From: Polynucleobacter sp.
GTDB lineage: Bacteria > Pseudomonadota > Gammaproteobacteria > Burkholderiales > Burkholderiaceae
NCBI GenBank assembly: GCA_023254115.1
Contig: JALQYK010000108.1
Location: 1-33,547, forward strand
Direction: 5' to 3'
DNA: 33,547 nt
The notes below the pieces were generated by a model. It was not told the origin of the DNA and ran no database searches. It saw nothing but the letters and a program-made list of their open reading frames with translations. Position numbers and translations under genes: made by a program. Shown one piece after another: positions 11,171-25,060 of this stretch. Each line of letters starts with the position of its first letter. Within the stretch, counting starts at the first letter, position 1.

Positions 11171-11292
11171 TCCATTTGAACTCCGGTAATCCGAAATACA
11201 CAATGCTAGAGGCCTTAGGGTAATTGCTAGGATTCACAACTTATATTCTTCTATAGTATAGAAAAACAAAAAAATATCTTTTAGGAGATGTG

Positions 11293-13251
11293 GTGCTCCA
11301 TACTGTAACGAATCATATTAGCGAAGTTGTTAGCTTTGCTGAGAGAGGTGTCGAAGCTGCTAAATTACCTAGCAGTCGAGATGAAATCATACGTTCATCT
11401 TGGGCGAGATGTGTTCATGAACACCACCTTGATCCTGCTAGGATGCAAGAGGCAATTATTTTGCCGAGCAACCAACTCCGTGAGCATCAAGATAGGATGG
11501 GAGATTTTTTACATATTGCCAGATATGGTTTGGAAACTTTGTATCAACAGGTAATGGGCATGGGGTATTGTGTTTTATTAACAGATGCCAAAGGAATTAC
11601 CGTAGATTTTATTGGAGACATTCAATTAGATTCTAGTTTACGTAAAGCCGGGCTATATTTAGGATCTGACTGGAGCGAAAAAAGTGCTGGTACATGCGGT
11701 GTTGGCACATGTATACAAACTGGACATGCGTTGACGGTTCACTTGGATGATCATTTTGATTCAACGCACATACCTTTGAGCTGTACTTCAGCGCCAGTGT
11801 TTGATAATTATGGAAACTTAAATGCAGTATTAGATGTTTCTCAATTAAGCACTGTACTGCCTAAGGAAAGTCAAAAGTTGGCAATGCAACTTGTTACCTT
11901 GTATGCAAGTTACATAGAAAATGCTAATTTTATGCATCAATTTCGTAAAGAAATTATCTTGAAGTTAGGGAATGCACCACAGTTTTTAGATGTTAATCCT
12001 GAGTACTTAATCGCTGTAGACACAACTGGGCGAGTAATCGGTCATAACAGATCCTCGCAAACCTTATTTGATCTTTTCCATCGTGGTGTTAAATTGCTTG
12101 GTATGCATTTTGAAGACATCTTTGATGCAGCCTTTGAGCGGGTGGGTGCTTATGCGCCAACAAACCCACCAGATAAAAGAGCAATAAGGCTTAAGGCTAA
12201 CGATCACTTGTTGTTTATGTCAGCACTGATTGCTTCTTCAGTATCAGACAGTAAGTTTAAAGTAAATGTAGATCAAGCAAGCTCATTACCGCTAAATAAA
12301 TTATGTGGCGATGACTCTGTCTTTAGAAGAGAGATTGATAGGGTTAAAAAACTAGTAAACACGCCCATCAGTATTTTGTTACAAGGCGAGACTGGAACTG
12401 GAAAAGAGTATTTTGCTAAAGCGGTTCATCAGTCTAGCGAAAGAAAGCATAAACCTTTTGTTGCGGTTAACTGTGCTGCAATACCAGAGACTTTGATTGA
12501 AAGTGAGTTATTTGGTTACACAGCGGGTAGTTTTTCTGGAGCAAAAACTAAAGGAAAGTTAGGTCTAATACAAGAGGCAGATGGGGGAACATTATTTCTA
12601 GATGAAATTGGCGATATGCCTATTGGTTTGCAAGCAAGGCTGCTACGCGTGCTGTCCGAGCGAGAGATTTTACCAATTGGTGCAACAAGGCCCCTACCTG
12701 TGAATATTCGTGTGATTGCTGCTAGCCATCGTGATCTAGAAGATTTAATTCGCTTGGGCGAGTTTAGGGATGATTTGTATTACAGATTAAATGGGGCGCA
12801 AGTAAGTTTGCCGCCGTTGCGTGAACGCAAGGACAAGCAATGGATAACGGAAAAAGTATTGCATGAGATTTGTAATCTAAATCACATTGAAATTCCCAAA
12901 ATTGATTCTGAAGTTATTGACTGGATGGAAAATTATCGTTGGCCAGGTAATTTAAGAGAATTAAAAAACATACTTGAATTTGCAGCTTCTGTGTGCCAGG
13001 AAAGTTTAATAACATTGGCTGATTTGCCGGATAAAGTTTTAAAAATGCCGGTTAAATTAATTAATGAAAATAAAGTAGCAGGTATAGGCGGTGGTGACAC
13101 AGCAGATGCTGCCTTATTGAAGCAATATTTAAGAGCTGCTAATTGGAATGTTAGTTATGTTGCTAGACAGCTTGATATTTCTAGGTCTACTTTGTATAGA
13201 AGGATGGAAAAATTTAATATTGAGCCGCCAAACGGTTTTAAATTTAACTAG
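11293..13251 (+). CDS. acoR: Sigma-54-dependent transcriptional activator AcoR
   Basis: About 652 residues with an N-terminal GAF domain (about 75-190; GVGTCIQTGHAL, CTSAPVFD), a PAS-like linker (about 232-285), an AAA+ sigma-54 domain and a C-terminal Fis-type helix-turn-helix (SYVARQLDISRSTLYRRM). Walker A GETGTGKE lies at about 365-372, Walker B GGTLFLDEIG at about 431-440, and the arginine finger in FRDDLYYR. The sigma-54-contact loop reads GSFSGA rather than GAFTGA. AcoR activates acetoin catabolic operons. The aco genes downstream have a sigma-54 promoter, so this is the expected activator. Two GTG codons compete. AGGAG at 11283-11287 favours 11293 (5-nt spacing) over 11290 (2 nt). Confidence 0.92.
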   Translation: MLHTVTNHISEVVSFAERGVEAAKLPSSRDEIIRSSWARCVHEHHLDPARMQEAIILPSNQLREHQDRMGDFLHIARYGLETLYQQVMGMGYCVLLTDAKGITVDFIGDIQLDSSLRKAGLYLGSDWSEKSAGTCGVGTCIQTGHALTVHLDDHFDSTHIPLSCTSAPVFDNYGNLNAVLDVSQLSTVLPKESQKLAMQLVTLYASYIENANFMHQFRKEIILKLGNAPQFLDVNPEYLIAVDTTGRVIGHNRSSQTLFDLFHRGVKLLGMHFEDIFDAAFERVGAYAPTNPPDKRAIRLKANDHLLFMSALIASSVSDSKFKVNVDQASSLPLNKLCGDDSVFRREIDRVKKLVNTPISILLQGETGTGKEYFAKAVHQSSERKHKPFVAVNCAAIPETLIESELFGYTAGSFSGAKTKGKLGLIQEADGGTLFLDEIGDMPIGLQARLLRVLSEREILPIGATRPLPVNIRVIAASHRDLEDLIRLGEFRDDLYYRLNGAQVSLPPLRERKDKQWITEKVLHEICNLNHIEIPKIDSEVIDWMENYRWPGNLRELKNILEFAASVCQESLITLADLPDKVLKMPVKLINENKVAGIGGGDTADAALLKQYLRAANWNVSYVARQLDISRSTLYRRMEKFNIEPPNGFKFN

Positions 13252-13255
13252 TATT

Positions 13256-13293
13256 TGTATCGGTGATGGCAGTACAGTTGTTTCATTGATACA
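13256..13293 (+). promoter_or_regulatory. Candidate activator-binding region for PQQ dehydrogenase 2
   Basis: It contains TTGTATCG, then an ACA-GT-TGTTTCA element (13270-13285) and TGATACA (13287-13293), about 110 bp upstream of the sigma-54 promoter. Related half-sites occur before the small RNA, acoX and DUF1097 promoters, which suggests AcoR or a close relative binds here. Confidence 0.5.
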
Positions 13294-13394
13294 GTTAAAA
13301 AATCACTAAGAGTTTTATAAAGGAATTTAATAAATTAATCATAATGAAATCAATGGATTAGACAATTTTTTTTAAATAAGTTTTTTTCAATGAA

Positions 13395-13411
13395 TTGGCA
13401 TGTATTTTGCA
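13395..13411 (+). promoter_or_regulatory. Sigma-54 promoter of PQQ dehydrogenase 2
   Basis: TTGGCATGTATTTTGCA has GG at 13397-13398, ten bases, and GC at 13409-13410, close to the TGGCAC-N5-TTGC consensus. The predicted start is near 13422, leaving a leader of about 60 nt. Confidence 0.8.
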
Positions 13412-13482: not shown

Positions 13483-15189
13483 ATGAAACGAGTAATTTCT
13501 TTTGCCAAATCAGGTTCAAAAATGAAATCGTTGGCATCGATTGCAATTGCTGCAAGCATGATAGTGTTGGCTAGTCCAACAGTTAATGCTGTGGCACCAC
13601 CAGCTGCCGGCGCAGATAACCCTAATAATTGGCCAGAATATCATCGAACGTTTAATGCTTGGCGTTATAGCCCATTGGAACAAATTAACAAGGCTAACGT
13701 TAAAAAGCTAAAGTTATCTTGGATTCATCAACCGGGTACTATTACACACGGTTTACAGGCTACGCCAATTGTGATTGATGGCGTTATGTATAGCATCGGA
13801 CCAGATAATAATGTGTTTGCGCTAAACGCTGCCACAGGTAAAATCTTGTGGAGATACACGGCAAAGTTAGATCCAATTGTTAAAGAGGTTTTTTATGGTT
13901 CAGCTAGTCGTGGGGTTACAGTCGGTCGTGGCAAGGTCTATGTTGGTAGTTTAGATGGCCGCTTTATTGCTTTGGATCAAAAAACTGGTAAAGAACTCTG
14001 GTCGACACAATTGACCAACTTGAAAGCTGAGTATGGTGCACTATTCTCATCCCCACCTCAACTTGCAGGTAATGTGTTGTACGGTGGCACAACTGGTGGT
14101 GACCAACCTATCATTGGTAAGATTTTCGCTGTAAATGCTGACACAGGTGAGCGTGTTTGGACATTTGAGATTCCTAAAGATGATAAGAATAGTTGGCCTG
14201 GTGATAGCCGTAAAGTGGGTGGTGGTTCTGCATGGTTGCCTGGAACATATGATGCACGTACTGACACAATTTATATCGGTACAAGTAATGCTGCACCTGA
14301 CTTTAATAATGATAACCGTAGAGGTGACAATCTATATACGGCGACATTGTTAGCGTTGGATCCTAAAACAGGTAAAGTTAAGTGGCATCGTCAAGAAGTT
14401 CCAATGGATACATGGGACTTTGATGCTGTATATGAGTCACTTCTTGTACCAGACGGTAAGGGTGGCGAATCTTTAGTTCATTTAAACAAAAATGGTTTTG
14501 TTTATGTGATGAACAAAGACACGGGCGCAATCAAAAATGCTTGGCAATTTACAGAGAACATGAACTGGGCTAAGGGTGTAGATCCTAAGACTGGTCTTCC
14601 AATTGATCCTGTATACCCTGAAACAGGCAAGCAAAAATTACATTGCCCTAATTTGTTGGGTGCACGTAGCTGGAATCATGGCGCATACAATCCTAAGACA
14701 AAATTATGGTATTCACACGCTATGGAGTTATGTAACACTGTAACTAGTGCTAAGGGGGATGATATTCCTAAAGGTATTTCAGCATTGTATCTAGGTCTAT
14801 CCGAAATTACTCTTACTAACCCTCCAGGTAAAAAAGGTGATGGTTGGTTGGGAGCGTTTGATCCACTAACAGGTAAGCAAGCATGGAAGATTCGTTTTGA
14901 GTTACCTCCATTGAGCTCAGTACTAGCTACTGCTGGTGGTTTGGTCTTCACAGGCGACATGGTTGGTAACTTATATGCATTTGATGCTGATAATGGTAAA
15001 GAATTATGGAAATTCAATGCCGGTTCAGGTGCTCGAGGTGGTCCAATTAGTTATGCTGTGAATGGCAAGCAATATATTGCTATTCCAACTGGTTTGGGTT
15101 CACATGCCCCAGGTTTTATGGCTGGCGCATTCCCACAGATCAAAGATTTGCCAGGTGGTGCAGCATTGTTAGTATTCTCTCTTGAGTAA
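13483..15189 (+). CDS. Atypical PQQ-dependent dehydrogenase (no Cys-Cys, GGD ligand)
   Basis: A 568-residue secreted quinoprotein with AAGGAGA seven bases before ATG 13483 and a signal peptide ending near VNA. Propeller tryptophan motifs are clear (NAATGKILWRY, DQKTGKELW, DADNGKELWKF). The active-site layout differs from the first PQQ enzyme. The adjacent Cys pair is absent (FYGSASRG at the equivalent place). The Glu ligand is replaced by Asp207 in TGGDQPI. Asn269 is kept. WDFDA gives catalytic Asp312 plus Asp314 at the lanthanide position. The substrate may be 2,3-butanediol or another alcohol feeding the acetoin pathway, given the AcoR and aco neighbours and its sigma-54 promoter; this is inference. 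A terminator and a cytochrome c gene follow. Confidence 0.9.
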   Translation: MKRVISFAKSGSKMKSLASIAIAASMIVLASPTVNAVAPPAAGADNPNNWPEYHRTFNAWRYSPLEQINKANVKKLKLSWIHQPGTITHGLQATPIVIDGVMYSIGPDNNVFALNAATGKILWRYTAKLDPIVKEVFYGSASRGVTVGRGKVYVGSLDGRFIALDQKTGKELWSTQLTNLKAEYGALFSSPPQLAGNVLYGGTTGGDQPIIGKIFAVNADTGERVWTFEIPKDDKNSWPGDSRKVGGGSAWLPGTYDARTDTIYIGTSNAAPDFNNDNRRGDNLYTATLLALDPKTGKVKWHRQEVPMDTWDFDAVYESLLVPDGKGGESLVHLNKNGFVYVMNKDTGAIKNAWQFTENMNWAKGVDPKTGLPIDPVYPETGKQKLHCPNLLGARSWNHGAYNPKTKLWYSHAMELCNTVTSAKGDDIPKGISALYLGLSEITLTNPPGKKGDGWLGAFDPLTGKQAWKIRFELPPLSSVLATAGGLVFTGDMVGNLYAFDADNGKELWKFNAGSGARGGPISYAVNGKQYIAIPTGLGSHAPGFMAGAFPQIKDLPGGAALLVFSLE

Positions 15190-15646: not shown

Positions 15647-16078
15647 ATGTTGGATGTTGCAAAAATTATTAAATCTAAAATTTTAAAACTACTTTATGTA
15701 ATAAAATTTCAGTTATTAACACTTTGGTATGCGTTTAAAGATCCAGAGTGTCCGATTTATCTAAGAGCTACAACATTCATAGTTATTTGTTATGGGTTTA
15801 GTCCAATAGACTTAATCCCTGATTTCATACCTGTTATCGGCTATGTTGACGAATTGATAATTTTGCCTATATTTATCAAAATAGTTGAGGTACTAATGCC
15901 TGGAAACGTTAGCACAAGAGCAAAAGCTAAGGCATCTAGTCATCTAGAGAATAAAAAACCCAAACCTAAAGTTTGGGTTGGTATTGTGATGATACTAGGT
16001 ATTTGGCTGCTTGTTGTTACTTCGCTGGCCCACCTTTTAGCGCCCAAGCTGCTAGATTACGTAAATCTGCATCACTAA
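15647..16078 (+). CDS. YkvA-family (DUF1232) membrane protein
   Basis: A 143-residue protein with the DUF1232 signature SPIDLIPDFIPVIGYVDE (about residues 50-67) and a hydrophobic helix near the C-terminus (about 110-130). It starts 4 bp after the cytochrome c stop, so the two are probably cotranscribed. DUF1232 proteins are widespread and their function is not established. The last 62 bp overlap the convergent cytochrome gene on the other strand. Confidence 0.85.
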   Translation: MLDVAKIIKSKILKLLYVIKFQLLTLWYAFKDPECPIYLRATTFIVICYGFSPIDLIPDFIPVIGYVDELIILPIFIKIVEVLMPGNVSTRAKAKASSHLENKKPKPKVWVGIVMILGIWLLVVTSLAHLLAPKLLDYVNLHH

Positions 16079-16334
16079 TTTGAGGGTGAGCAGGCATAGG
16101 TACTGGCCCCCAAACGCCTTTGCCTCCAGTTTTAATCTTTTGAGCCATCTTGTCTATAGCGCTTGTATCACCAGAATATTTTTTAGCTATATCTTGAAAT
16201 GCTGGGCCGATAATTTTTTTATCACTAGCATGACATGCAGTGCAACCATTTTTAGTTGCTAAGGATTGGTCCGCAAATGCTGGAGAAATACTTGTAATAA
16301 ATAAAAGAACGCCCAAAATTTTTTTGTAGTTCAT
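16017..16334 (-). CDS. Class I cytochrome c (c551/c552-like)
   Basis: A 105-residue secreted cytochrome. A signal peptide ends near AFA-DQ, followed by the haem motif Cys31-Thr-Ala-Cys34-His35 and the Met80 ligand in GPVPMPAHP, then a C-terminal helix LRNLAAWALKGG. It is a small soluble electron carrier, possibly between the quinoproteins and a terminal oxidase. I chose ATG 16334, with AAAGG upstream and a clean signal peptide, over the in-frame TTG at 16370. Its 3' end overlaps the DUF1232 gene by 62 bp, tail to tail. Confidence 0.9.
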   Translation of the reverse strand: MNYKKILGVLLFITSISPAFADQSLATKNGCTACHASDKKIIGPAFQDIAKKYSGDTSAIDKMAQKIKTGGKGVWGPVPMPAHPQISDADLRNLAAWALKGGPAK

Positions 16335-16412
16335 TCTGTTAGCCTTTCTGTGCTTAAGTTTGAGATTCAATGATAATAAAAAAGATGTTAATTTGTAACT
16401 AGAATTTACGCA

Positions 16413-16440
16413 TTGTATCGGTACATCTGTTGCGATACAA
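16413..16440 (+). promoter_or_regulatory. Inverted repeat, candidate activator site for the small RNA promoter
   Basis: TTGTATCG, twelve bases, CGATACAA: a perfect 8-bp inverted repeat. Its centre also holds a TACA-TC-TGTTGCG element like the other sites. It ends 80 bp before the GG of the sigma-54 promoter, a usual enhancer distance. Confidence 0.6.
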
Positions 16441-16517
16441 CAATGGTGTAATTCTTTATTATGTTTATAGAATCGAAAAAATTAAAAGATAATCATGTAG
16501 TTACAAAACTCTCATTG

Positions 16518-16534
16518 TTGGCATAATACTTGCG
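16518..16534 (+). promoter_or_regulatory. Sigma-54 promoter of predicted small RNA
   Basis: TTGGCATAATACTTGCG has GG at 16520-16521, ten bases, and GC at 16532-16533. The predicted start is near 16545, exactly where the 5' hairpin of the small RNA begins. Confidence 0.75.
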
Positions 16535-16544
16535 TATTGAATAG

Positions 16545-16626
16545 GCGCACACTTTTTTAGCGATTTGTTGTGCGTGCATAAATCTCCTCCTGCCGCCTAA
16601 CTACTGCAGTTAGGCGGCTTTTTTTT
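16545..16626 (+). ncRNA. Predicted sigma-54-dependent small RNA, ~82 nt, with CUCCUCC linker
   Basis: No ORF explains this segment. From the predicted start it folds as three parts. First is a 7-bp 5' hairpin (GCGCACA at 16545-16551 with TGTGCGT at 16569-16575). Next is an unpaired linker with CTCCTCCT (16584-16591). Last is a terminator with a perfect 11-bp stem (16592-16602 with 16608-16618) and eight T. This is the layout of Hfq-type trans-acting RNAs. The CU-rich linker is complementary to Shine-Dalgarno sequences: 8 nt of the thiamin-linked TonB receptor RBS (24830-24837), 7 nt of acoR (11283-11289) and 6 nt of acoA (17871-17876). An alternative is a leader that terminates before acoX, but acoX has its own promoter downstream. 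Expression is not shown by sequence. Confidence 0.7.
16592..16626 (+). terminator. Strong rho-independent terminator of the small RNA
   Basis: GCCGCCTAACT, loop ACTGC, AGTTAGGCGGC, then T8. A perfect GC-rich stem that stands out in AT-rich sequence. Confidence 0.93.
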
Positions 16627-16641
16627 GATACATATGTTTCA
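16626..16641 (+). promoter_or_regulatory. Candidate activator site for acoX promoter
   Basis: TGATACA-TA-TGTTTCA is a near-perfect palindrome 115 bp before the sigma-54 GG. It matches the DUF1097 upstream site (TGAGACA-AG-TGTTTCA) at 13 of 16 positions. It begins at the last T of the small RNA terminator. Confidence 0.6.
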
Positions 16642-16754
16642 AAAAAAGAACAATGCTGTCGCATGGCAACATATAGCTACAGTCTGTGCAAAAAAAATAT
16701 GTTTTTTATTCATAAAAAACAATAGGTTGAGGAAATCTATGGTTGGTTGGTTAA

Positions 16755-16771
16755 TTGGCATGCAATTTGCA
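16755..16771 (+). promoter_or_regulatory. Sigma-54 promoter of the aco operon
   Basis: TTGGCATGCAATTTGCA has GG at 16757-16758, ten bases, and GC at 16769-16770. The predicted start is near 16782, 25 nt before acoX. Confidence 0.85.
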
Positions 16772-16806: not shown

Positions 16807-17868
16807 ATGTCTAAAAACACAGTTGGAATAATTGCAAATCCGGTATCCGCTAGAGATATCCGGAGAATTATTTCCAATGCGAGCAACTTGCAGACCTCTG
16901 AAAGAGTCAATATCGTAATGAGGTTATTGTCGACTCTATTTTCTTGCGGTGTTAGTGATGCATACATGATGCCAGACAAGGCCGGTTTAACAGCAATGTT
17001 GTTGAGGTCAATTAAAAAAGAGCATGCCCAAACTGAAGGGGTCAAGTTATATCCGGATTTACATTTTGTAGACTTGAGTGTTACGTCTACAGTTGATGAT
17101 ACCTACAAAGCCGCTAATTTAATGGTTGATGCAGGTGTAAAAGTGATATTTGTCTTGGGTGGTGATGGAACGCATAGAGCTGTTGTTAAAGAGCTAATGA
17201 AGTTGAAGGATGCTGGTAAGAGTATTCCAGCAATCTGTGGGATATCTACAGGCACAAATAATGCATTTCCTCAAATGCTAGAGCCTACTGTTGCCGCTTT
17301 AGCGGTGGCTCACTATGTTAATGAAAAAATTCCAGCCGATAAAGCATTGATTAAAAATAAAGTTATTGAAGTTTGTCTTGATGATAAGGTTGCTGATATA
17401 GCGATTGTTGATGCTGTAATTAGTAAAGATATGTATGTTGGATCGAGAGCAATTTGGGAGGCAAGTAAATTGTCGGAACTTTATTTGACATATGCAGATC
17501 CTATGGTGATAGGTTTTTCAGCTATTGGTGGGCTGTTGCAACCAGTAGAGAGGTTCAGTAATGATGGTTTGGCTGTGTATATGTCAGATGATTCAAGTAA
17601 AACATCCATAGTTATTAAAGCACCCATAGCACCTGGTATGTTGAGAGATGTGCCTATTGAAAATCATCAAAAAATGGTTGCGGATGTTTCTTATCCAATT
17701 CGCATAGAAAAAGGTATTGTCGCATTAGATGGGGAGAGAGAATTTTCATTTAAGACTGGTCAAAAAGTTTCTATACGTCTTCGTAAGAATGTTTTTTCAA
17801 CGGTGAATGTCAGTAGCTGTATGCATGAAATTGCAGACAAGGGATTGCTTTGCCATACTTTGGTTTAA
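16807..17868 (+). CDS. acoX: Acetoin catabolism protein AcoX (NAD-kinase-like)
   Basis: A 353-residue cytoplasmic protein of the ATP-NAD/AcoX kinase family. It has a nucleotide-binding GGDGTHR motif (118-124) followed by CGISTGTNNAFP, the second conserved Gly-rich/Asn element. AcoX is encoded first in the aco operons of Ralstonia and relatives. Its exact reaction is not settled, and it is not strictly needed for acetoin cleavage. It is the first gene after the sigma-54 promoter, with 13 bp to acoA, so it belongs to that operon. Length and gene order are as expected. Confidence 0.9.
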   Translation: MSKNTVGIIANPVSARDIRRIISNASNLQTSERVNIVMRLLSTLFSCGVSDAYMMPDKAGLTAMLLRSIKKEHAQTEGVKLYPDLHFVDLSVTSTVDDTYKAANLMVDAGVKVIFVLGGDGTHRAVVKELMKLKDAGKSIPAICGISTGTNNAFPQMLEPTVAALAVAHYVNEKIPADKALIKNKVIEVCLDDKVADIAIVDAVISKDMYVGSRAIWEASKLSELYLTYADPMVIGFSAIGGLLQPVERFSNDGLAVYMSDDSSKTSIVIKAPIAPGMLRDVPIENHQKMVADVSYPIRIEKGIVALDGEREFSFKTGQKVSIRLRKNVFSTVNVSSCMHEIADKGLLCHTLV

Positions 17869-19906: not shown

Positions 19907-21016
19907 ATGTCTAATATCACTCCAATTGTTATGCCTAAATGGGGCTTATCAATGCAAGAGGGAACAGTTACTTCATGGTTGGTCGAGGTAGGTACTCAAA
20001 TTGAAGTTGGTATGCCAATCCTTGAGGTAGAGACAGATAAGATTGCTAATGCAGTTGAGGCTCCTGATCCAGGTTTATTAAGACGGAAAGTGGCATCAGA
20101 TGGCGAGTTATTGCCTGTCAAGGCTTTACTCGGAGTGATGGCTGATAGTGATGTGACGGATGCTGAAATTGATGAATACATAGCATCTTATGTAACTCCA
20201 TCATCAGATGATGATGGAGTTGAGGAAGTTTCTGCTAATTTATTCGTTGATGTAAACGGAATCAATGTTCGCTATGTTAAGCGTGGAGCAGACAGTGGTG
20301 TACCAGTTATTTTTATTCATGGATTTGGTGGTGATTTAGATAATTGGTTATTTAATATTGATTCAATTGCAGATAAGCATCCTGTAATTGCACTAGATTT
20401 ACCTGGGCATGGTCAGTCGGCAATTAAATTACCTGGCGCAAGTATTACTGCCTTAGGTAATTTCGTTATTGATTTTATGAAGGCTATCAATGTTGATAAG
20501 GCTCACTTAGTTGGTCACTCAATGGGTGGTGCAGTAGCAGCTAAAGTTGCATTATTAGACTCTAATAGGGTTGATACGCTAAATCTGATATGTACTGCAG
20601 GTATGGGTGAAGATATTAATTCATCATATACACATGGTTTTGCAAGTTCTGAGTCTAAGCGTGAATTAAAACCGTTCTTAGAGTTGTTGTTTGCCGATAG
20701 TTCGTTAGTTGGCAGACAAATGATTGATGACGTTTTGAAATATAAACGTTTAGATGGTGTAACTAACTTGCTACTTGAGTTGGGGGGGGCATTATTTGGT
20801 AATGGCAAGCAATGCGAACAGCCTGTGAAAGAGTTGTCAGGTAACCATAAAGTTTTGATTATTGTTGGTGAAAAAGATCAAATCATTCCTTCGCAGCATG
20901 TTAAAAATGCACCAAGTCACGCCAAGGTTCAAGTATTTTCAGATGCCGGACATATGACGCAAATGGAAAAAGCTAATGAAGTAAATAAGTTAATCATCGA
21001 TCATATAAGTGGTTAG
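19907..21016 (+). CDS. acoC: Acetoin dehydrogenase E2: lipoyl domain fused to alpha/beta hydrolase
   Basis: A 369-residue protein with an N-terminal lipoyl domain (1-80, Lys45 in VETDKIANAV) and a C-terminal alpha/beta-hydrolase domain (HGFGGD at 138-143, nucleophile Ser205 in GHSMGG, and a late DAGHMTQ His). This layout is the AcoC form known from Ralstonia-type acetoin systems, where the hydrolase-like domain replaces the usual CoA acetyltransferase domain. It should accept the acetyl group from E1 and pass it to CoA. The start ATG directly follows the acoB stop. A run of eight G at 20782-20789 lies inside the gene. No E3 (dihydrolipoamide dehydrogenase) gene is in the operon, so that enzyme is supplied from elsewhere. 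Confidence 0.94.
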   Translation: MSNITPIVMPKWGLSMQEGTVTSWLVEVGTQIEVGMPILEVETDKIANAVEAPDPGLLRRKVASDGELLPVKALLGVMADSDVTDAEIDEYIASYVTPSSDDDGVEEVSANLFVDVNGINVRYVKRGADSGVPVIFIHGFGGDLDNWLFNIDSIADKHPVIALDLPGHGQSAIKLPGASITALGNFVIDFMKAINVDKAHLVGHSMGGAVAAKVALLDSNRVDTLNLICTAGMGEDINSSYTHGFASSESKRELKPFLELLFADSSLVGRQMIDDVLKYKRLDGVTNLLLELGGALFGNGKQCEQPVKELSGNHKVLIIVGEKDQIIPSQHVKNAPSHAKVQVFSDAGHMTQMEKANEVNKLIIDHISG

Positions 21017-21785
21017 CACTTTGGCTGGTTTGCAAGAGCTTAATAACCGTATTGATTATGAATCAATACGGTTATTAACTATTGACGAGCCAGTATCTGG
21101 AGAAATAGAGGCTGAATGGTCAAATAGAATTGGGCTCGGCGAGCTCGATGCAATCGGAATTATTTGGTCGGGTCGCAATGAACTTGTTCAGCCACTATCA
21201 TATAAAAAATACTCTAAATTAGATGACGCAGAAGCGTTAGCATCTAGTTACGGGTTTGCGACAAGATTTAGGCAGTCTGGTGGAGGCTTAGTTCCACAGG
21301 GTGATGGAATTTTAAATCTAAGCCTTATCTGGAAAACAAAATCAAATATTTCAGAAATATCTAATGATATATATCTGCATTTGGGCTCGATAATAAAAAA
21401 AACATTTAGTCAGTTTGGAGTTGAAACCTTTTATCAAGAAGTGCCAAGAGCATTTTGTGACGGTAGATTTAATTTGGCAGCAATACATAATGACCAAGTT
21501 AAAAAGATAGTTGGTACAGCGCAGTACTGGAAAAAATATAACGAAATATACGTTGTTCTTGCGCATGCATTAATTTTGATAAACGTTAACAATAACAAAC
21601 TATGTGATTTACTAAATAAATATGAGGAAAAATTAGGTAGTGATAAATCCTACAGCCCTGATGCGATTGTGGATTTTTGTACACTATTTAGTTCTGAAAA
21701 TGAAGATTTTTTAAGTAAAAACGTAATTAAAGAATTATTCATAAAAGAGTTGGCTAACCAAATTATTAAGATTGGAGAAGATTAA
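21009..21785 (+). CDS. Lipoate-protein ligase A-like protein
   Basis: A 258-residue protein of the lipoate/biotin ligase (LplA) fold. RFRQSGGGLVPQGDGILNLSL (from about residue 86) corresponds to the RRxSGGGAVxHDxGNLNxS core of LplA, and VKKIVGTAQYWKK resembles the ligase KIAGSAQ segment with its Lys. It starts at GTG 21009 overlapping acoC by 8 bp, which implies translational coupling. The obvious job is attaching lipoate or octanoate to Lys45 of AcoC. The sequence diverges from housekeeping LplA, so a dedicated or altered ligase is likely. Confidence 0.82.
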   Translation: MVSTLAGLQELNNRIDYESIRLLTIDEPVSGEIEAEWSNRIGLGELDAIGIIWSGRNELVQPLSYKKYSKLDDAEALASSYGFATRFRQSGGGLVPQGDGILNLSLIWKTKSNISEISNDIYLHLGSIIKKTFSQFGVETFYQEVPRAFCDGRFNLAAIHNDQVKKIVGTAQYWKKYNEIYVVLAHALILINVNNNKLCDLLNKYEEKLGSDKSYSPDAIVDFCTLFSSENEDFLSKNVIKELFIKELANQIIKIGED

Positions 21786-22094
21786 ATGGTCTTATTGGAA
21801 TTTTCTATTGCGCCTTTTGATAAAGGATCTAGTGTAAGTGAATATGTTGCTAAAGCATTGAGAGTAATTGATGATAGTGGGCTCGATTATCAGTTGACTC
21901 CAATGGGTACCATTATTGAAGGAGACTGGTTAAAAGTAATGGGTTTGGTTGACGAGTGCTTCAAGGTAATGTCAAAAGAATCTGACAGAGTTGTTATGCA
22001 GATTAAAGTAGATTATCGTAAAGACAGGGTTGGTAGAATAAAAGGAAAAGTTCAAAGTGTTGAAAAAATCATAGGCAAAAAATTGTCTAAGTAA
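21786..22094 (+). CDS. MTH1187-family thiamine-binding protein
   Basis: A 102-residue cytoplasmic protein of the MTH1187/YkoF-like thiamine-binding family (PF01910). It begins LEFSIAPFDKGSSVSEYVAKALRVIDDSGLDYQLTPMGTIIEGDW, the hallmark N-terminal segment, and continues with a ferredoxin-like fold. It starts on the base after the ligase stop. Family members bind thiamine or derivatives. Placed within the operon of a TPP-dependent dehydrogenase, it may buffer or deliver the cofactor to AcoAB; that role is inferred. Confidence 0.85.
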   Translation: MVLLEFSIAPFDKGSSVSEYVAKALRVIDDSGLDYQLTPMGTIIEGDWLKVMGLVDECFKVMSKESDRVVMQIKVDYRKDRVGRIKGKVQSVEKIIGKKLSK

Positions 22095-24825: not shown

Positions 24826-24872
24826 CGTTATCTCCTCAAGGTTATACGATGGCGAGTTAGGGGATGCGATTT

Positions 24873-24960
24873 CGGACGCTTCCCTGCGCTCGCATTATCG
24901 AGATCAGGTTCAACGGGTTTTTCTCACCTATTTTGCTTACGCAAAACGGGACCCCGAGCT
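24873..24960 (-). promoter_or_regulatory. TPP (THI-box) riboswitch
   Basis: Read on the minus strand the segment holds, in order, CTCGGGGTCCCG, a small variable stem, GGTGAGA, ACCCGTTGAACCTGATCT, CGATAATGCGAGCGCAGGGAAGCG. These are the conserved TPP-aptamer elements (compare E. coli thiM), with only a G for C change in the CTGAGA box. It ends about 50 nt before the receptor start, leaving room for a translational expression platform near the GAGGAG RBS. TPP binding should lower receptor expression. Confidence 0.95.
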
Positions 24961-25060
24961 TTTATCTAAAAAAATAGATAACTTAGTGTACTCTAAAAGA
25001 CAACTTTTGTACTTTTTTTATGTGAATTTTTAAAATTATTCCCATAAATATTTGAATAAT

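Follow-up and report, generated by a model that had tools for sequence, protein, structure and literature searches.

A predicted sigma-54-dependent small RNA with an anti-Shine-Dalgarno-like linker ahead of acoX in a Polynucleobacter acetoin locus

The acetoin operon in the window, by which we mean the whole 33,547-nucleotide stretch of DNA analysed, begins with acoX (16807-17868, + strand), continues with acoA, acoB and acoC to 21016, and is separated by a 470-bp gap from a minus-strand cytochrome c gene (ATG at 16334). What would a sigma-54 promoter produce that stands in this gap with a terminator closely behind it and a second sigma-54 promoter beyond? The first promoter, P1 (TGGCATAATACTTGCG, 16519-16534, + strand), has an exact TGGCA-N6-TTGC core at 16519-16533, with its GG at 16520-16521, its GC at 16532-16533 and a predicted +1 near 16545. 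The second, P2 (TGGCATGCAATTTGCA, 16756-16771, + strand), is the predicted promoter of the acoX operon; its core, also exact, begins 51 nt upstream of the acoX ATG, and its predicted +1 is 16782. The intrinsic terminator (16592-16626, + strand) sets in 59 nt past the P1 core and consists of an 11-bp stem (16592-16618, 7 GC) with a 5-nt loop, followed by eight T; in the terminator scan, the stem at 16592 scored on the + strand only. Between P1 and the terminator runs an AT-rich stretch with the anti-Shine-Dalgarno-like linker CTCCTCCT (16584-16591, + strand). Upstream, an imperfect 28-bp palindrome (TTGTATCGGTACATCTGTTGCGATACAA, 16413-16440; 11 of 14 pairs, 13-nt arms 85% complementary) is centred about 93 bp before the -24 GG of P1, a usual enhancer distance, and is a candidate AcoR operator for this promoter. 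Together, P1 and the terminator delimit the predicted small RNA, which is about 82 nt long (16545-16626, + strand). A preliminary description of this DNA had named the inverted repeat, the GG-N10-GC promoter, the terminator and an enclosed segment of about 82 nt lacking an open reading frame; we found the first three at the coordinates given there, and the segment holds no credible reading frame.

This arrangement of promoter, palindrome and terminator is real and lies beyond chance. Counting both strands, the 1,618,106-base genome has 69 copies of the TGGCA-N6-TTGC core; at this density the + strand of the 470-bp gap should contain about 0.01, and two are observed. The window contains three exact cores only (at 13396, 16519 and 16756), all on the + strand, and all three lie outside every stop-to-stop frame of at least 450 nt, versus three of the 30 distinct cores, from the genome's 69, that were fetched as loci for this frame test. 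Terminators of comparable grade are rare, numbering 33 in 483,708 strand-bases. One result tells against P1: by a rough, approximate sigma-54 weight matrix it receives 13.1, the seventh-highest score in the window, with the 13396 and 16756 cores (16.8 each) and four sites without an exact core ahead of it. A further pair of cores, on contig C59 and also 237 bp apart, sits in an ORF with a fliD-like appearance and was set aside as coincidence.

A regulator suited to these promoters is encoded nearby. The product of acoR (11290-13251, + strand) is a sigma-54 activator with an AAA+ domain and a Fis-type helix-turn-helix; the genome has one other strong activator match, on contig C11, and a weak third. 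Gene names were taken from Pfam and NCBIfam; those of acoX, acoA and acoR were assigned by family and genomic context, AcoR being so called for the gene's position beside acoX-acoC, with no NCBIfam model at its cut-off. In an NCBIfam scan of ten proteins, only AcoC lay above the cut-off for an acetoin name; the PQQ dehydrogenase scored 461 bits, just under the 480 bits that its subfamily requires. RpoN (domain E 6.3e-66) and Hfq (E 1.6e-29) are both encoded in the genome. The third exact core of the window belongs to the promoter of this PQQ-dependent dehydrogenase (TGGCATGTATTTTGCA, 13396-13411, + strand; gene at 13483-15189), upstream of which lie the candidate AcoR half-sites TGTATC, TGTTTC and GATACA (13255-13294). 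TGTATC, which comes from the palindrome at 16413-16440, also occurs at 13256 and 13288 before the 13396 core and at 16627 before the 16756 core; measured against all window positions, this hexamer alone gives fractions of 0.006 and 0.10 for the two cores, respectively. If TGTTTC is counted as well, there are two or three half-sites at each promoter, a level reached by 0 of 2000 dinucleotide shuffles, the wider motif having been picked after inspection and part of the operator argument having been assembled post hoc.

Two further elements lie before P2. The half-sites GATACATATGTTTC (16627-16640), a possible part of the P2 enhancer, fall within a second 28-bp palindrome, and CTGTCGCATGGCAACATATAGCTACAG (16656-16682) is a candidate AcoR operator for P2. 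The second palindrome (TTTTTTTGATACATATGTTTCAAAAAAA, 16620-16647; 13 of 14 pairs) is among the two best of its length in the window, begins inside the T run of the terminator and carries AcoR-like half-sites. At L050, the locus of the order-level relative with the top-scoring AcoX (54% identity), CTGTATTGCAACATATTTTTTCGATACAG precedes the acoX promoter and resembles CTGTCGCATGGCAACATATAGCTACAG when compared by eye, and CTGTATTG..CGATACAG stands immediately ahead of the acoX sigma-54 promoter. According to the excerpt of the source article, the AcoR operator of Bacillales is palindromic, spans about 30 bp and comprises two homologous pairs of sites (PMC10018347); by analogy, the 28-bp palindrome at 16413-16440 fits a candidate AcoR operator. 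P1, P2 and the 13396 promoter are best read as a putative three-promoter AcoR regulon in which P1 and the terminator form a separate short unit. Because the third core and its P1-like half-sites stand ahead of a PQQ-dependent dehydrogenase and a cytochrome c, the sequence suggests that AcoR may also control an alcohol or diol oxidation step. The preliminary description had put the RNA under sigma-54; of this, the + strand core, a fitting palindrome and genes for RpoN, Hfq and an AcoR-type activator are in place, whereas AcoR binding and transcription are steps that we infer.

Folding separates the predicted RNA into a strong and a weak part. The whole RNA (16545-16626) has a minimum free energy (MFE) of -28.9 kcal/mol and a z-score of -4.77; without the terminator, the remaining 5' hairpin has a z-score of -1.25, with 22 of 200 shuffles folding equally well, and a 5' part that starts at 16534 has a z-score of +0.39. 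By itself, then, the 5' hairpin falls short of significance, and the z-score of the whole is chiefly due to the terminator. The terminator is a real structure; the 5' hairpin, which the earlier account had placed at the predicted start, folds no better than shuffled sequence and is not established. That account was right about the linker, which is unpaired in the MFE structure, with CUCCUCCU single-stranded. The eight-T terminator tail and the Hfq gene in the genome are Hfq-type features, and the RNA may use Hfq. No Rfam family reached its threshold over the RNA stretch, and in the window only the TPP riboswitch family reached its gathering score. The segment 16546-16629 shares a layout of small 5' hairpin, linker and terminator with the Rfam trpB motif, and a likeness to that motif was scored at 29.7 bits (E 0.028 for 411 bases); this identity was rejected, being below the threshold of 59 bits, as was NrrF, which matched on the opposite strand with 20.9 of the 60 bits required.

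A short transcript from P1 is the natural reading of the gap because P2 lies near acoX, the terminator scores on the + strand only and an opposing cytochrome gene lies upstream; by the ORF list, the nearest + strand ORF of at least 100 aa upstream of the terminator stops at 16078, with the cytochrome gene in between. Nor is the terminator obviously part of the acoX mRNA, since acoX has its own, better-scoring P2 downstream. We tentatively favour, at a little below an even chance, an AcoR- and sigma-54-driven RNA of about 82 nt that is separate from the acoX operon and acts in trans by anti-Shine-Dalgarno pairing. AcoR, on sensing acetoin, would activate the sigma-54-dependent P1 and yield a free-standing RNA ending at the terminator; this RNA would be separate from the P2-driven acoX operon and induced together with it and with the PQQ dehydrogenase operon. 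The single-stranded AUCUCCUCCU linker would then pair in trans with strong Shine-Dalgarno sequences and lower translation; the mRNA of a TonB-dependent receptor, which has the longest linker match in the sampled set, and that of acoR, among the next, would be putative targets, and the outcome would be negative feedback or a trimming loop.

Such anti-Shine-Dalgarno action is plausible from the sequence, and the pairing can be put in numbers. The longest match of the linker uses 16582-16589 (ATCTCCTC) and covers 8 nt at the ribosome-binding site of the TonB receptor, the sole 8-nt match among 179 starts. The acoR site is matched over 7 nt (six of the 179 starts reach at least 7 nt), the acoA and PQQ dehydrogenase sites over 6 nt each (25 reach at least 6 nt) and the acoX site over 4 nt, while in a second gene set outside the locus four of 198 starts reach at least 7 nt. 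Both sets of starts come from a rough caller run over the window and 20 stretches (208,307 bases), and some of them are wrong; the caller put the acoX start at 16996, and the starts of the locus genes were set by hand for a comparison of GGAG-bearing starts. A match of at least 7 nt was found at two of seven such starts in the locus versus four of 43 outside, which is no clear enrichment. By duplex energy, the TonB receptor, acoR, PQQ dehydrogenase and acoA rank 28, 43, 56 and 103 among the 179 starts. Complementarity to the acoA, acoR and TonB-receptor sites, as claimed in the preliminary description, is thus correct at 6, 7 and 8 nt, but the target specificity that it implied does not exceed what strong Shine-Dalgarno sequences give. 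Much of the linker pairing arises because the Shine-Dalgarno sequences of the putative targets are strong, and the target signal is at most suggestive.

A TPP riboswitch (24864-24966, minus strand; 66.7 bits, gathering score 54.3) lies directly ahead of the TonB-dependent receptor gene, and since it does, the receptor probably takes part in thiamine uptake. The same locus encodes the TPP-dependent acetoin dehydrogenase, a thiamine-binding protein (21786-22094) and a lipoate-ligase-like protein (21009-21785). One could go further and suppose that AcoR makes its own anti-Shine-Dalgarno RNA, which down-tunes both acoR and the TPP-riboswitch-linked TonB receptor and so joins carbon sensing, activator level and cofactor uptake in one loop; we regard this as rather unlikely to hold in full.

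Of the other explanations, the one that survives best gives the RNA no function in trans. P1 would either serve acoX as an auxiliary promoter or be a weak by-product, and the terminator would be a leader attenuator or an insulator; as an insulator, it would stop transcription from P1 or from upstream before the AcoR sites of P2 (16627-16682). We consider this doubtful, yet a serious possibility. It is consistent with the end of the terminator adjoining the first P2 half-sites at 16627, with the placement of two cores 237 bp apart ahead of one operon, with the presence of more than one sigma-54-like site before acoX at L059 as well, and with an RNA body that has no significant structure beyond the terminator. 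However, the single RNA fold made shows no alternative antiterminator structure, and P2 has the higher core score, with its core 51 nt from acoX. The comparison with ten order-level acoX loci (L050-L057, L059 and L060) also argues against it: six have a sigma-54-like site within 150 nt before acoX (L050, L051, L052, L056, L059 and L060) and four have none, and in none of the ten does a terminator stand between such a site and acoX. At L052, a terminator precedes the core; L055 has a terminator without any core, and L060 a core at -78 with no terminator in the 425 bases upstream. The tandem sites of L059, at about -113 and -69 relative to acoX, are not separated by a terminator. The promoter-linker-terminator layout is present in none of these ten loci, which are distant (38-55% AcoX identity). 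We also scanned 18 actinobacterial acoX loci, which are too distant for promoter comparison.

Alternatively, transcription could start constitutively, and independently of acetoin, from a sigma-70 promoter, GTTACA-16-CATAAT with an extended TG (16500-16527), at about 16534, with the GG-N10-GC match a coincidence. This site, which overlaps P1, matches 9 of 12 consensus positions and has TG before its -10 element, but sigma-70-like sites are not clearly enriched (seven found against a shuffle mean of 4.5, sd 1.5), and a sigma-70 start leaves unexplained the palindrome and the half-sites common to three cores. We judge it improbable.

Equally improbable, in our estimate, is that nothing is transcribed, with P1 a core that arose by chance or has decayed and the terminator a relic. 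In its favour, 27 of the 30 genome cores checked lie inside long frames and are hence probably chance occurrences, and the RNA is not conserved in 186 genomes of the genus. Against it, a core and a strong terminator in one orientation, together with a suitably spaced palindrome, are unlikely to coincide within 215 bp. The record on conservation is as follows. acoX and acoA are each present in one of the 186 genus genomes, namely the window's own; acoX was found in nine of 399 sampled genomes of the order (the window's included), in three of 32 genomes of the family of genome G472 and, at E 1e-50, in one of 369 sampled genomes of the class, again the window's own. A covariance search of related genomes, proposed in the preliminary description, yielded no credible homologue of the RNA in the 186 genus genomes under stricter filters, the best match outside its own genome having an E of 0.018. 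There is accordingly no covariation to draw on, which tells against the favoured RNA as well. Matches at an E of at most 1 occurred in 21 of the 186, its own genome included; among the 14 that we read of the 20 in other genomes, none contained CTCCTCC within the match, and the 60 nt upstream held no TGGCA-N6-TTGC core, although four had a loose GG-N10-GC there. Run over 22 sources (the window, the ten order-level acoX loci, four of the 18 actinobacterial loci and seven of the 20 stretches of the window's genome), the model hit no acoX locus at an E of at most 10; its matches were the window itself (twice) and five weak ones in the window's genome. Searched with blastn against 61 genomes (60 of them relatives), 16400-16640 gave, beyond the window, weak matches only (E 6.9e-4 or worse); eight of these loci, including the two best (in G054 and G012), were read in part by eye and show no promoter-linker-terminator layout. 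The blastn searches of plasmids and phages returned nothing below E 0.08 and 0.3, respectively, and the exact pattern had no occurrence in viral contigs.

The contig that forms the window (C95 of genome G000) has a GC content of 0.389, compared with 0.41-0.46 in ten other stretches of the assembly, and a tetranucleotide correlation of 0.918, compared with 0.95-0.98 in nine other stretches and 0.88 in one. As it is AT-richer and less typical in its tetranucleotides, it may conceivably be an acquired island or a binning error.

Finally, the transcript might encode an 11-residue peptide from the TTG at 16565, but the frames of at least 8 codons listed for the RNA are nested TTG or GTG frames of at most 11 codons, and with a non-ATG start and no upstream Shine-Dalgarno sequence this reading was rejected as highly improbable.

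The RNA from P1 that we favour is a well-formed prediction from one genome. If it is made, acetoin catabolism would become one of the few pathways in which a small RNA is under direct control of the sigma-54 activator, and the RNA would be a further anti-Shine-Dalgarno RNA, with the activator's own mRNA as a possible target. CrcZ, NrsZ, GlmY and Qrr are, like the candidate here, short RNAs from sigma-54 promoters under enhancer-binding proteins; their activators are CbrB, NtrC, GlrR and LuxO, respectively, and their modes of action differ. To our knowledge, no sigma-54-driven small RNA under AcoR is on record; our searches of open-licence papers showed none, and they gave no match for Polynucleobacter together with acetoin. 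The CcsR or cuckoo RNAs of Rhodobacter resemble the candidate in having CU-rich motifs between hairpins. Unlike it, they are processed from the 3' end of an operon, occur in repeated copies and depend on stress sigma factors, with no part for AcoR or sigma-54.

Two other systems have anti-Shine-Dalgarno regions. The Neisseria NmsR RNAs act via single-stranded, UC-rich regions, of which one separates stem-loops, and in N. meningitidis NmsRA and NmsRB are described, in the excerpt of the article, as pairing with the Shine-Dalgarno sequences of central-carbon mRNAs (PMC5362039). They differ from the candidate in being a pair of siblings whose putative -35/-10 promoters are stringently controlled and in having two anti-Shine-Dalgarno regions and three stem-loops, and the same excerpt holds no link to acetoin (PMC5362039). 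NfeR1/alpha-r14 of the Rhizobiales shares with the candidate an unpaired anti-Shine-Dalgarno motif, CCUCCUCCC, and exerts feedback on the ntrBC mRNA, which encodes a sigma-54 activator system; it differs in having three hairpins with the motif in each, in being Hfq-independent, and in being activated by LsrB and repressed by NtrC from a promoter that, as far as the excerpt goes, bears no sigma-54 signature (PMC10746234). By analogy, the candidate RNA would combine two known kinds, the sigma-54-driven RNAs and the anti-Shine-Dalgarno RNAs represented, in the excerpts of these two articles, by NmsR (PMC5362039) and NfeR1 (PMC10746234).
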